A stretch of DNA of 34,482 nucleotides from Lentisphaeria bacterium (lineage in GTDB: Bacteria; Verrucomicrobiota; Lentisphaeria; Victivallales; Victivallaceae): positions 1 to 34,482 of the forward strand of contig JAFVQX010000040.1 in assembly GCA_017504585.1 (NCBI GenBank), written 5' to 3'. Shown one piece after another: positions 4,281 through 8,168 of this stretch. The position numbers were made by a program, and so were the translations under genes. Within the stretch, counting starts at the first letter, position 1. Each line of letters opens with the position of its first letter. The notes beneath the pieces were generated by a model. It was not told the DNA's origin. It worked only from the letters and a program-made list of their open reading frames with translations, and did not search any database.

Positions 4281-5051
4281 TTATTTACTTATTTCTTCAT
4301 AACAGGCGGCAAAGCCAGCCCATTTCCAATCTTTTGCCTGGTCGGCGGTCGAAATAGTTATCGGTACGCCATGTCCGCCCAAATGCACAGCATTGATCGA
4401 GTTGGGGTGAATTGGCGCAGAACTGCTTTTCTGCGAAAGTTTTGCTGCCAGACTCCCCGGCGCATCGTGGATTATCATAGCATTGGGGTCATCCCTCCCC
4501 ACGATACGCCTGCCGATACCATTGCCGGAACTGTCTTTCAGGTCGTGCCCCGCGATGGTTTCGGTTTCATCCGCCGCCTGCTGCGGGGTGTGATATAAGA
4601 ATATGTATGATGTATTCACATAATAGCCTTCTTCCGCCGAGGTCGTACCGAACAGCACACTGTCGCTGGGGCAGCGGAAATTGGGCTCAATATCAGTTTT
4701 TTGCAGATTGGTCGCTTCCGGCGACGGCATAAAGCCCATGTAGCCGCCGCACACCAGCAAATTGGGCACCGCATGGCGGCCGCTGATGATCCGGCAGGAG
4801 CTGCCGTAACCGCACATGCGCGCCATCTCTTCTTCGCTGCTGTGATGAAACGATACTGCAATGGAACCTTTATGATCGTTGGCGTAAAGATTTTGCCCCA
4901 TCCACAGATTTTTCAATTTAGACAAACAAACTGTACTGCGCGCCCGCTCCCGGGCTGCCGAAAGCGCCGGTAAAAGCATAGCTGCCAATATAGCAATTAT
5001 TGCAATTACAACCAGCAGTTCAATGAGGGTAAAACGTTTTATTTTCTTCAT
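4281..5051 (-). CDS. pseudopilin-like protein (prepilin N-terminal methylation motif)
   Basis: A 256-aa protein with the class III/type II secretion prepilin leader: a short basic start (MKKIKR), then [20 protein letters not shown] with the invariant Glu five residues after the processing point, and a single long hydrophobic helix. A prepilin peptidase would cleave just before Phe and methylate it. The remainder is a soluble domain with Cys and Gly residues and the late motif NAVHLGGHG, typical of the large DUF1559-like pseudopilin families of Lentisphaerae and Planctomycetes. Substrate and assembly partners are unknown. The start is fixed by the motif, an AAGGTG ribosome site and a good promoter (5075-5102). 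No secretion ATPase or secretin is nearby, so it is an orphan minor pseudopilin or surface protein. Confidence 0.88.
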
Positions 5052-5116: not shown

Positions 5117-6874
5117 TTAACGGGCTTTGTACCACTTGGGAACACCTTTTTTGCGCAAGCGTTCTATCAGATTTTTTCTGCGTTTGCTTAAAAAATCTGC
5201 CTGATTGTTCAGACCGGGGTCGCTGTATGGGGTGCCGGCGGTGGAGTCAAATATGATATGTTTTTCTTTTTCTGACAACTCTGTATTGCCGGAACTCTCC
5301 CCCAGCCATGCCACGGTACCGCCGCGCCGTCTGCCGAAAGATGGCGTTTCGCCCACCAGAAAACCTGCCTTATACATGGCCCCTCTTACACTGGGGGAAC
5401 TACTGTAAGTCAGGAGCAGCGCCGATTGCTGAACCATGATACGGCGGCAGCAGCGCAAAAACTGCCAGCTCCACAACTCCGGATTTACATCGCTGGAAAA
5501 TGCATCGAGCCACACCAGATCAAAGTGATTTTCCGGCAAAAGCTGTACCGATTTACGGGCATCCTCCAGTAATAGAGTTATGGAAGAATTTTTATAACTG
5601 CTCCGGCGTTTTTCCAAAAGATCAGTCAAAACTTTTTGCTGCCATTGCGCTGTTTGATAAAACTGCATGGCGGCGCGAAGGGTTCGCTCATCATTTTCCA
5701 GCGAAACTATCTCCAGTTGAGCCCCGGGTATATCAGCCGCACACGCCATTGCCGCAAAGGCGTTGCCGCCCAGACCGAAACCGATATCCAGCAAACGCAA
5801 CGTTTTGCCTTGTCGGGCAAATTCATCAAGTTTTTCTGCCAAACGGGAGGGTTCGGCAAATTTCTTTTCTGCTTCGCTCCCTGCCCCGGCTAAAGAATGA
5901 AAATGCTGCCGGTAAACGGGGTGATAAAGCGTGGGAGTACCGTCAGAAGTACGGGCAACAACAAAAGAACCGGCATTGGAGCTTTCATCGTAAAAATACT
6001 GCTCAAAAAAGCTTAAAAACTGCCCTTTCTGCATCCACCATTTCGGGGCTTCCAGCTCGTCGGCAGCCGCATCTGCCATCAAACGCATCAGGAGCCAATT
6101 TTCCGGCAATTTCTGCAAAAAAGCTTTCAATCCGGCAGCATATTCGTACTCATTAAGCGGCGAAACATAGCTTTTATTGGCCCCGTATCGCCGTGCCAGA
6201 ACCGTATTTTTCAGCACCATAAGCTGATGAAGCTTGACTGCGCTCAATGGCAAATCGGCAGCTTTTTCCGCAGTAGCCGCCCAATCGTCCATGGTTTCGC
6301 CGGGCAACCCCAGAATAAAGTGTCCGGCGATTTTGATATTCCTTGCCGCCAAACGCTGACAAGCCTGTTGCACCGCGGTAAAGTCATGCCCCCGGTTGAT
6401 CTCCGCCAAAGTCCTGTCGTGGGCGCTTTGAATACCCAATTCAACAAAAAGTTCATAACGCAACGATAACTCCGCCAGATAATCCAAAACATCATCCGGC
6501 AAAGCATCAGGACGGGTGGAGATGATAACCACCTTGAAATCGGCTTGAGCGAGAACTTTTTCATAAAGATCGCGCAAAATCTCCACCGGAGCATTGGTCG
6601 AGGTGAAACTCTGAAAATAAGCTATATAGCTGGAACACTCGCCATAACGCCGTTTTATATACTCTTTTCCCCGCGCCACTTGCTCAACGAGATCCAGTCC
6701 GGTGCGTGATAAATGCCGCGCCCGCGCCCCGTCTTCGGAGCAGAAAATACACCCTTCGCCAAAACCGCCGCTGCTGCGATTGGGACACCCCAGCGCCAGA
6801 TCAATGGGGATTCGCTGCAGCGAACTGCCATATTTTTGCTGCAAGTATTTACTGAAATGGAACAAATGTTTCAT
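5117..6874 (-). CDS. fused YhcC/YtqA-type radical SAM enzyme and MnmD-like tRNA methyltransferase
   Basis: A 585-aa two-domain protein. Residues 1 to about 300 match the TIGR01212 radical SAM family (YhcC, YtqA/MnmL): cluster cysteines C30, C42 and C45 (spacing CX11CX2C, inside GCPNR...GCIFC), then SFTSTNAP, RPD at 121-123, VELGIQSAHD and HFILGLPGET. Residues from about 305 to 525 form a class I SAM-dependent methyltransferase of the MnmC2/MnmD (DUF752) type: GTPTLYHP, FHSLAGAGSE, the SAM loop LLDIGFGLGGN at 361-371 and WLDAFSSDVNPELW at 455-468, equivalent to the LDGFAP.KNPDMW signature of E. coli MnmC. YtqA/MnmL acts in conversion of cmnm5s2U to mnm5s2U at tRNA position 34, and MnmD methylates nm5s2U, so the fusion probably does consecutive steps. 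This is inference from domain pairing. No Shine-Dalgarno sequence is visible before the ATG. Confidence 0.85.
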   Translation of the reverse strand: MKHLFHFSKYLQQKYGSSLQRIPIDLALGCPNRSSGGFGEGCIFCSEDGARARHLSRTGLDLVEQVARGKEYIKRRYGECSSYIAYFQSFTSTNAPVEILRDLYEKVLAQADFKVVIISTRPDALPDDVLDYLAELSLRYELFVELGIQSAHDRTLAEINRGHDFTAVQQACQRLAARNIKIAGHFILGLPGETMDDWAATAEKAADLPLSAVKLHQLMVLKNTVLARRYGANKSYVSPLNEYEYAAGLKAFLQKLPENWLLMRLMADAAADELEAPKWWMQKGQFLSFFEQYFYDESSNAGSFVVARTSDGTPTLYHPVYRQHFHSLAGAGSEAEKKFAEPSRLAEKLDEFARQGKTLRLLDIGFGLGGNAFAAMACAADIPGAQLEIVSLENDERTLRAAMQFYQTAQWQQKVLTDLLEKRRSSYKNSSITLLLEDARKSVQLLPENHFDLVWLDAFSSDVNPELWSWQFLRCCRRIMVQQSALLLTYSSSPSVRGAMYKAGFLVGETPSFGRRRGGTVAWLGESSGNTELSEKEKHIIFDSTAGTPYSDPGLNNQADFLSKRRKNLIERLRKKGVPKWYKAR

Positions 6875-7010: not shown

Positions 7011-8168
7011 ATGAATATAGTTATTGCCGGTGGTGGTGCGGCGGCTGCGGCGGCTGCGGAAAAGTGTCGTTTGTTATCCCCCGACAGCGATATAACGATA
7101 TTTTCCGACGAAGCCGTTTTACCTTACCGCCGTCCCCGGTTGGTCGATCTGCTGAACAAAGATGTTCTGCCCGAAAACTTTTTTATCCGCCCCGAAAAGT
7201 TTTATAAAGAACATAATATAAAAATCCATCTCCAAAGCTCTGTTATCGGAATCGATATAGCCGAAAAACGTATTACTCTGCTGAATAATCGAACTGTAAA
7301 TTTTGACCGTCTGCTGCTGGCAACCGGCGCGGAAAGCCGCAAATTGCCATTCCGGGAGCTTAATGATAACGTGTTTTACCTCAACAGTTTTGCTGATCGG
7401 CAAAAGATAAAAAGCGAGCTTGATTTTTGCCGCAACATTGCCGTGATCGGCGGTGGCGTGCTGGGGTTGGAAATCGCCGCCAAGCTTTTATCCTGCGAGC
7501 ATAATGTGACGCTTCTGGAGCGTAATCACGATCTGCTCAATGGCGTGCTGGATAAAGAATGCAGCACATTTCTGCGCAATAAACTTTTTACCCACCCCAG
7601 ATTACGGATCATAAGCAACTGTCAGGCAACAGGTTTTACTAAAAGATCCAGTCAGCTCTGCTGTCTGCTGGATAACAGTGTAAATCGGCAAATACCCGCC
7701 GACATGGCGATTTGCGCCATCGGCACCCGCCCCAACAATTTTCCCGGCAGCGACAGTCCTGTCGTTACCGATGAATATTTGCGCACGTCATACAGCCCAG
7801 ACATCTTTGCGGCCGGCAGTTGTGCTTTGGTAAATGGCAAGAGCTGCGAATATTATATACCGGCATTGCGTCAAGCCGAAACCGCCGCCGCAAACTTATT
7901 GTGCAGCCAAACAGAAGATATGCATAAATACCGCTTTCCGGTGCCGGAGTTCCGCTGCAATCTCGATAATATAAAGATTTATTGCGCCGGCAACGCGCTT
8001 GATCCCGCGCTGGCAACAGAAACGCAAAATGATGGTATATCGCTGAAAAAACTTTATTACCGGCAAAATCACCTGGTGGGTTGCGCCATGATCGGCGAAC
8101 ATGCCGCCACCGGCGAAATATACGATACTATCTGCCGCAATACAGAAAAAATCAATGCTCCGGCTTGA
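7011..8168 (+). CDS. FAD/NAD(P)-dependent pyridine nucleotide-disulfide-type oxidoreductase
   Basis: A 385-aa flavoprotein of the NADH oxidase/rubredoxin reductase/nitrite reductase-like group. The N-terminal FAD dinucleotide fold is IVIAGGGAAAAAAAEKCR. The segment LPYRRPRL matches the family's Y.RP.LS motif, ATGAESR is the second FAD motif, and AVIGGGVLGLEIAAKL near residue 146 is the NAD(P) fold. ICAIGTRPN and PDIFAAGSCALV form the C-terminal FAD contact. No redox-active CxxC or CxxxxC pair is seen, so it is not a disulfide reductase. It may pass electrons to a separate small partner such as rubredoxin, which is not in this window. The ATG at 7011 follows AAAGGGAGA. It converges on tyrA and overlaps its 3' end by 17 bp. 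The exact substrate cannot be told. Confidence 0.82.
   Translation: MNIVIAGGGAAAAAAAEKCRLLSPDSDITIFSDEAVLPYRRPRLVDLLNKDVLPENFFIRPEKFYKEHNIKIHLQSSVIGIDIAEKRITLLNNRTVNFDRLLLATGAESRKLPFRELNDNVFYLNSFADRQKIKSELDFCRNIAVIGGGVLGLEIAAKLLSCEHNVTLLERNHDLLNGVLDKECSTFLRNKLFTHPRLRIISNCQATGFTKRSSQLCCLLDNSVNRQIPADMAICAIGTRPNNFPGSDSPVVTDEYLRTSYSPDIFAAGSCALVNGKSCEYYIPALRQAETAAANLLCSQTEDMHKYRFPVPEFRCNLDNIKIYCAGNALDPALATETQNDGISLKKLYYRQNHLVGCAMIGEHAATGEIYDTICRNTEKINAPA

Follow-up and report, generated by a model that had tools for sequence, protein, structure and literature searches.

In the synthesis of mnm5(s2)U, MnmE and MnmG make cmnm5U and MnmA adds s2. Most bacteria keep separate the two enzymes that are joined in the protein considered here; Bacillus has its radical SAM enzyme and its methylase as separate proteins. 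The MnmC2 of Aquifex also stands alone, and is described as active without an oxidase domain. One review, citing Jaroch et al. 2024, gives MnmL as an alternative enzyme, in place of MnmC, at the nm5s2U step (PMC12548931), and a YtqA-family enzyme is cited in this and a second paper as the reported missing step in Gram-positives (PMC12548931, PMC12245174). The FAD site of E. coli MnmC is about 45 Å from its SAM site, and channelling between the two was thought unlikely by the authors of the structural work; a loop containing F67, G68, G70 and N72 provides SAM-binding residues, and E101 and D178, both conserved in Aquifex MnmC2, apparently play a critical part in binding SAM and transferring the methyl group (PMC3648344).

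The window analysed here is a stretch of 34,482 nucleotides from a Lentisphaeria bacterium (GCA_017504585.1, contig JAFVQX010000040.1), in which the original prediction recognized a fusion of an MnmL-type radical SAM enzyme with an MnmD-type methyltransferase. The relevant ORF (Table 1) starts with ATG and has no internal stops. Both domain identities were borne out: in profile searches residues 6-304 scored 250.5 bits against TIGR01212 (cut-off 180), placing them in that family, and residues 410-523 scored 78.2 bits against PF05430 (cut-off 22), and the solved structure nearest to the methyltransferase half proved to be that of Aquifex aeolicus MnmC2 (3VYW; phmmer, E=4.3e-31). With NF033855 (MnmC2), residues 317-521 reached 94.5 bits, under the cut-off of 136; we dropped this as an argument against MnmD identity, because a 241-aa stretch of the verified Aquifex MnmC2, used for calibration, misses the same cut-off (113.1 bits). 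Profile searches of the 585-aa ORF found neither the FAD domain of MnmC1 (DAO, TIGR03197) nor PF06962, so it is neither an E. coli-type MnmC nor an MnmM.

Table 1. Coordinates of the fused gene, its parts and neighbour in the window, and of other fusions in the phylum (locus handle before the colon)
Feature	Position	Strand	Basis
Fused radical SAM / MnmD-type methyltransferase gene	5117..6874	-	585-aa ORF, both halves by profile
Radical SAM domain, residues 6-304 (TIGR01212, with Radical_SAM and Radical_SAM_C)	5963..6859	-	Profiles
MnmC2/MnmD-type methyltransferase domain, residues 317-521	5312..5926	-	PF05430, phmmer, Foldseek
[4Fe-4S] cluster cysteines C30, C42, C45	6740..6787	-	Invariant in 51 fused proteins and in 46-row alignment
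SAM-binding loop LLDIGFGLGGN, residues 361-371	5762..5794	-	Alignment with E. coli MnmC
Catalytic/SAM motif DAFSSDVNPELW, residues 457-468	5471..5506	-	98% conserved in fused proteins; D457 = MnmC D178
FAD/NAD(P) rubredoxin- or ferredoxin-reductase-family flavoenzyme, divergent from the fusion	7011..8168	+	Profiles
FAD oxidase-MnmM fusions, family f25	L205:1032-2690; L206:1642-3318; L207:1227-2879; L208:1098-2774		
TGT-MnmD fusions	L074:1800-3998; L212:2764-4827; L213:1728-3806; L214:2366-4396; L215:1783-3879		

The joined gene is genuine and widespread and not a local oddity, since several bacterial phyla carry the same one. Three genomes of the same genus have it (at 66-70% identity). Two genomes of this genus are Lentisphaerae bacterium SIG86 and SIG95 (L139 has the neighbour matches of L006, and L137 those of L007), in support of the lineage that the prediction had guessed. 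Among relatives, where the prediction had proposed to look for it, 72 of the 388 genomes sampled from the phylum carry it, and these belong to the window's order and to several further families. Independent isolates, among them Sulfurospirillum diekertiae JPD-1 (whose genome is complete), Desulfogranum marinum DSM 2058 and Lentisphaerae bacterium WC36, likewise have it as a single ORF. From these occurrences, the fusion is no accident of assembly: internal stops do interrupt some distant copies in metagenome-assembled genomes (MAGs), but the single ORFs in complete and isolate genomes from different phyla make it scarcely credible that a frameshift, a chimeric assembly or read-through brought the two halves together.

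Named genomes with the one-ORF fusion belong to Kiritimatiellae (Pontiellaceae), Lentisphaeria/Victivallales, Desulforhopalus, Desulfogranum marinum DSM 2058 and Sulfurospirillum; it was found too in MAGs labelled Sulfurovum, Termititenax, Cloacimonadota and Gemmatimonadetes, whose labels may be wrong, whereas the isolates are secure. Of the 399 Campylobacterales genomes examined, it was found in 38 (as a partial match in two of these). This spread is the reason for regarding the fusion as an old architecture, probably transferred, and not as a speciality of Lentisphaerota; the lineage is therefore not where the novelty lies, as had been supposed. Unfused copies occur in a few families (f28, f66, f60, f74 and f12). 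Their radical SAM domains fall inside or adjoin the fused clade in our trees, the pattern expected from secondary splitting. The f28 methyltransferase branches outside the fused methyltransferases, so that in this family the separate genes may have come first. One further methyltransferase (G291, L052) was left out of account, having a very long branch and perhaps a frameshift.

Which member of the TIGR01212 family is fused here? The current NCBI name of the model, 'tRNA modification radical SAM protein MnmL/YtqA', might seem to answer this, and we considered the score as proof of MnmL. It had to be dropped: E. coli YhcC scores higher (473 bits), and E. coli already has MnmC. As the model cannot separate subfamilies, trees were built with the fused type, E. 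coli YhcC, Campylobacterales paralogues and the YtqA of Anoxybacillus (whose gene overlaps one specifying a protein 42% identical to MnmM). The trees resolved three clades: that of YhcC, that of YtqA, and one of the fused type, which stands apart with 100/100 support. The fused domain thus lies outside the YtqA clade of Bacilli and does not group with E. coli YhcC; its mean identity is 31.2% to the YtqA group (Bacilli) against 31.5% to the YhcC group, and a search for residues diagnostic of YtqA versus YhcC, by which it might have been placed, found none. Judged from these trees, it is a third TIGR01212 clade. No MnmM gene was found within 3 kb of clostridial stand-alone radical SAM genes.

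In its strict sense, therefore, the term 'MnmL-type' was not borne out: the domain probably acts like MnmL, but we do not class it as an orthologue of YtqA. As it is outside the YtqA clade and equally distant from YhcC, the family to which it belongs does not decide which reaction it catalyses. The fused domain might, in principle, be a YhcC-type enzyme of unrelated function that was joined to MnmD by chance; the family name is no bar to this, TIGR01212 giving YhcC 473 bits against 250 for the fused domain. The trees disfavour it, however, with YhcC paralogues forming a separate clade and coexisting with the fusion in Sulfurospirillum, and the fusion has been kept across phyla with every cluster residue invariant, so we consider such a chance union very improbable. 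For the same reasons (a clade of its own, and a coexisting YhcC-type paralogue), the suggestion that the fusion supports a tRNA-34 role for the YhcC family has to be withdrawn. A YhcC-type TIGR01212 paralogue of about 325 aa is present in many of the sampled Campylobacterales, also in those that have the fusion (G388; L187-L190, L200, L201).

Both active sites look functional, to judge from conservation of the cluster cysteines and of the SAM-binding and catalytic residues. C30, C42 and C45, the loop LLDIGFGLGGN and LDAFSSDVNPELW are all present as originally described. In an alignment with E. coli MnmC, F366, G367, G369 and N371 of the fusion match F67, G68, G70 and N72, and E393 and D457 match E101 and D178. 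Across 51 fused proteins these six residues, together with D438, F459 and W468, are 96-100% conserved (98-100% for E393, D457, F366 and G369, the counterparts of E101, D178, F67 and G70). An AlphaFold model made with an alignment of 46 fused proteins had a mean pLDDT of 90.6 and a pTM of 0.74. Using Foldseek, the methyltransferase half of the model had 3VYW as its top match (E=2.5e-19) and also matched 2QY6 (TM(target) 0.72), and the best PDB folds for the radical SAM half were those of Elp3. Elp3 is a tRNA U34 radical SAM enzyme, so that MnmC2 and Elp3 are both U34 enzymes.

The genome from which the window comes (2.94 Mb, 81% complete) has mnmE, mnmG and mnmA, all above profile cut-offs, as predicted. 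It contains a single PF05430 domain, that of the fusion itself, and a single TIGR01212 match above the cut-off. No MnmC1 match above 30 bits was found in this 81%-complete genome, only Rossmann-sized fragments, and a profile search of it found no MnmM (PF06962). The predicted lack of mnmC1, mnmC and mnmM thus holds for what is assembled, and the radical SAM domain does take the place of the FAD domain of MnmC. Neither of the outcomes named beforehand as fatal to the prediction, membership of another methyltransferase family or a full mnmC in the genome, turned up. Because the genome is incomplete, complete genomes were examined: those of S. diekertiae JPD-1 and Lentisphaerae bacterium WC36, in which every candidate was scored, have no MnmC1 at E<=1e-10, and WC36, likewise a carrier of the fusion, has no MnmM.

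Across the phylum, MnmM is present in 61 of the 388 genomes, none of which has the fusion (Fisher p=2.4e-6, with shared ancestry ignored); the exclusion tracks family lines, so that it represents few independent events. MnmC1 was above the cut-off in five of the 388, again none with the fusion, in a scan that scored the best four candidates per genome and in which absence is accordingly softer than in the complete-genome scan. A Sulfurovum MAG (G400; L202, L203) has the fusion and an MnmC1-like ORF scoring 169 bits, just below the cut-off of 174; either the two coexist or the bin is mixed. In genus g4, of the window's own family f1, the listed genomes (e.g. G016, G022 and G031) lack the fusion, and those of them listed in the MnmC1 and MnmM scans had neither. 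Loss of the final mnm5 steps is possible in this genus.

We think it quite probable that the fusion is an enzyme with two activities at the tRNA wobble uridine (U34), which together complete mnm5(s2)U. MnmE and MnmG, whose genes are present, would, like known members of their families, first provide cmnm5U, with s2 added by MnmA. The radical SAM domain would then use a 5'-deoxyadenosyl radical to strip the carboxymethyl group from the aminomethyl nitrogen, giving nm5(s2)U, as is suggested by the reported role of MnmL and by the position of the domain in the place of MnmC1. Finally, the MnmD-type domain, a close relative of Aquifex MnmC2 that retains the SAM-site residues, would methylate the amine with a second SAM to give mnm5(s2)U. 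The fusion would in this way replace MnmC without a flavin oxidase, and such a route would suit anaerobic or microaerophilic carriers.

Alternatively, only the methyltransferase half might act in mnm5U formation, with nm5U coming from MnmEG and ammonium, and the radical SAM half might act on that tRNA by some other reaction, at U34 or elsewhere in the anticodon. That this half belongs to neither the YtqA nor the YhcC clade of TIGR01212 but to a third is compatible with that, and MnmEG is able to make nm5U with ammonium (PMC3936742). Moreover, MnmD-type domains also occur joined to TGT, which acts at position 34 but is a different enzyme, so the fusion partner of MnmD is not always the upstream enzyme. 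Genomes with the fusion, however, have no clear MnmC1, so that cmnm5 would then be a dead end, and the reports that a YtqA-family enzyme supplies the missing Gram-positive step (cited in PMC12548931 and PMC12245174) also argue for dealkylation; we therefore regard a role for the methyltransferase alone as unlikely, and prefer the bifunctional enzyme.

Among the neighbours, the divergent reductase (Table 1) adjoins the fusion on the opposite strand at 22 of 26 loci of the same family, most of these reductases being only about 27-37% identical. It could be the electron donor of the radical SAM cluster, but we treat this as no more than a lead, as no such reductase was seen beside the fusion outside the window's order. 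A pseudopilin gene on the other side (4281-5051) is kept there in the same genus only.

We also draw attention to other fusions in the phylum. Family f25 has ORFs of 551-559 aa in which an FAD domain (DAO; MnmC1/ThiO-like) is fused to MnmM (NF053511, 188.7 bits; cut-off 135), and in f19 and f49 (L191, L192, L193, L194, L204) a DAO-family FAD gene directly adjoins MnmM on the same strand, unfused. From f19 and f49, two radical SAM proteins (L071, L072) were placed in the tree, and both lie on the YhcC side. Several genomes of the phylum, including other members of f25, have the queuosine enzyme TGT joined to a methyltransferase domain of MnmD type; f25 ORFs of about 690 aa that had been taken for full MnmC are in fact such TGT-MnmD fusions. 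The existence of FAD oxidase-MnmM fusions and pairs beside the radical SAM-MnmD fusion makes the dealkylating and methylating modules seem interchangeable. A bolder synthesis, offered tentatively and with rather less than even confidence, is that the fused domain represents a third, unrecognized TIGR01212 subfamily that needs neither flavin nor oxygen for the MnmC1 step, and that two dealkylating modules (FAD oxidase and radical SAM) have mixed freely with two methylases (MnmD and MnmM), all four pairings existing, two of them as reciprocal fusions (radical SAM-MnmD and FAD oxidase-MnmM), and several within one phylum.

How much of this is new? The components of the fusion were already known. 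A 2024 abstract by Jaroch et al. reportedly mentions that fusion proteins occur and that the biosynthetic components can be arranged in other ways, and these authors may have listed a fusion of this sort. Apart from that work, we found no description of a radical SAM-MnmD fusion among the searched papers that mention MnmL, and a search for MnmC2 fused with radical SAM gave general reviews only. The value of the fusion is that a natural one-chain version, with a structurally known methylase, provides a link, by the logic of genomes, between the radical SAM step and the mnm5 pathway, and that a single gene carrying both proposed steps can be tested as one unit in an E. coli mnmC mutant. The TIGR01212 label 'MnmL/YtqA' moreover spans at least three clades, which makes it unsafe to call YhcC-type proteins automatically as mnm5 enzymes.

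Compared with known systems, the fusion resembles E. coli MnmC in having both activities from cmnm5(s2)U through nm5 to mnm5 (proposed ones, in the fusion) in one chain, with homologous methyltransferases in which the equivalents of E101 and D178 are kept; it differs in having a radical SAM domain instead of an FAD oxidase, and in the order of the halves, the methyltransferase being N-terminal in MnmC and C-terminal in the fusion. With MnmL (YtqA) and MnmM (YtqB) of Bacillus it shares the pairing of a TIGR01212 enzyme with a tRNA methyltransferase, and probably the product, but it is one chain, its methyltransferase is MnmD-type and its radical SAM domain is outside the YtqA clade. The stand-alone Aquifex aeolicus MnmC2 (DUF752) provides the nearest solved structure to the methyltransferase half, but has no dealkylating domain fused to it. 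E. coli YhcC is of the same TIGR01212 family and has the same cluster motif, but is in a separate clade, is unfused, and occurs alongside MnmC, just as YhcC relatives occur alongside the fusion in Sulfurospirillum. Lastly, the f25 proteins of the same phylum likewise join a dealkylating module to an mnm5 methyltransferase, but in the opposite pairing, FAD oxidase with MnmM.
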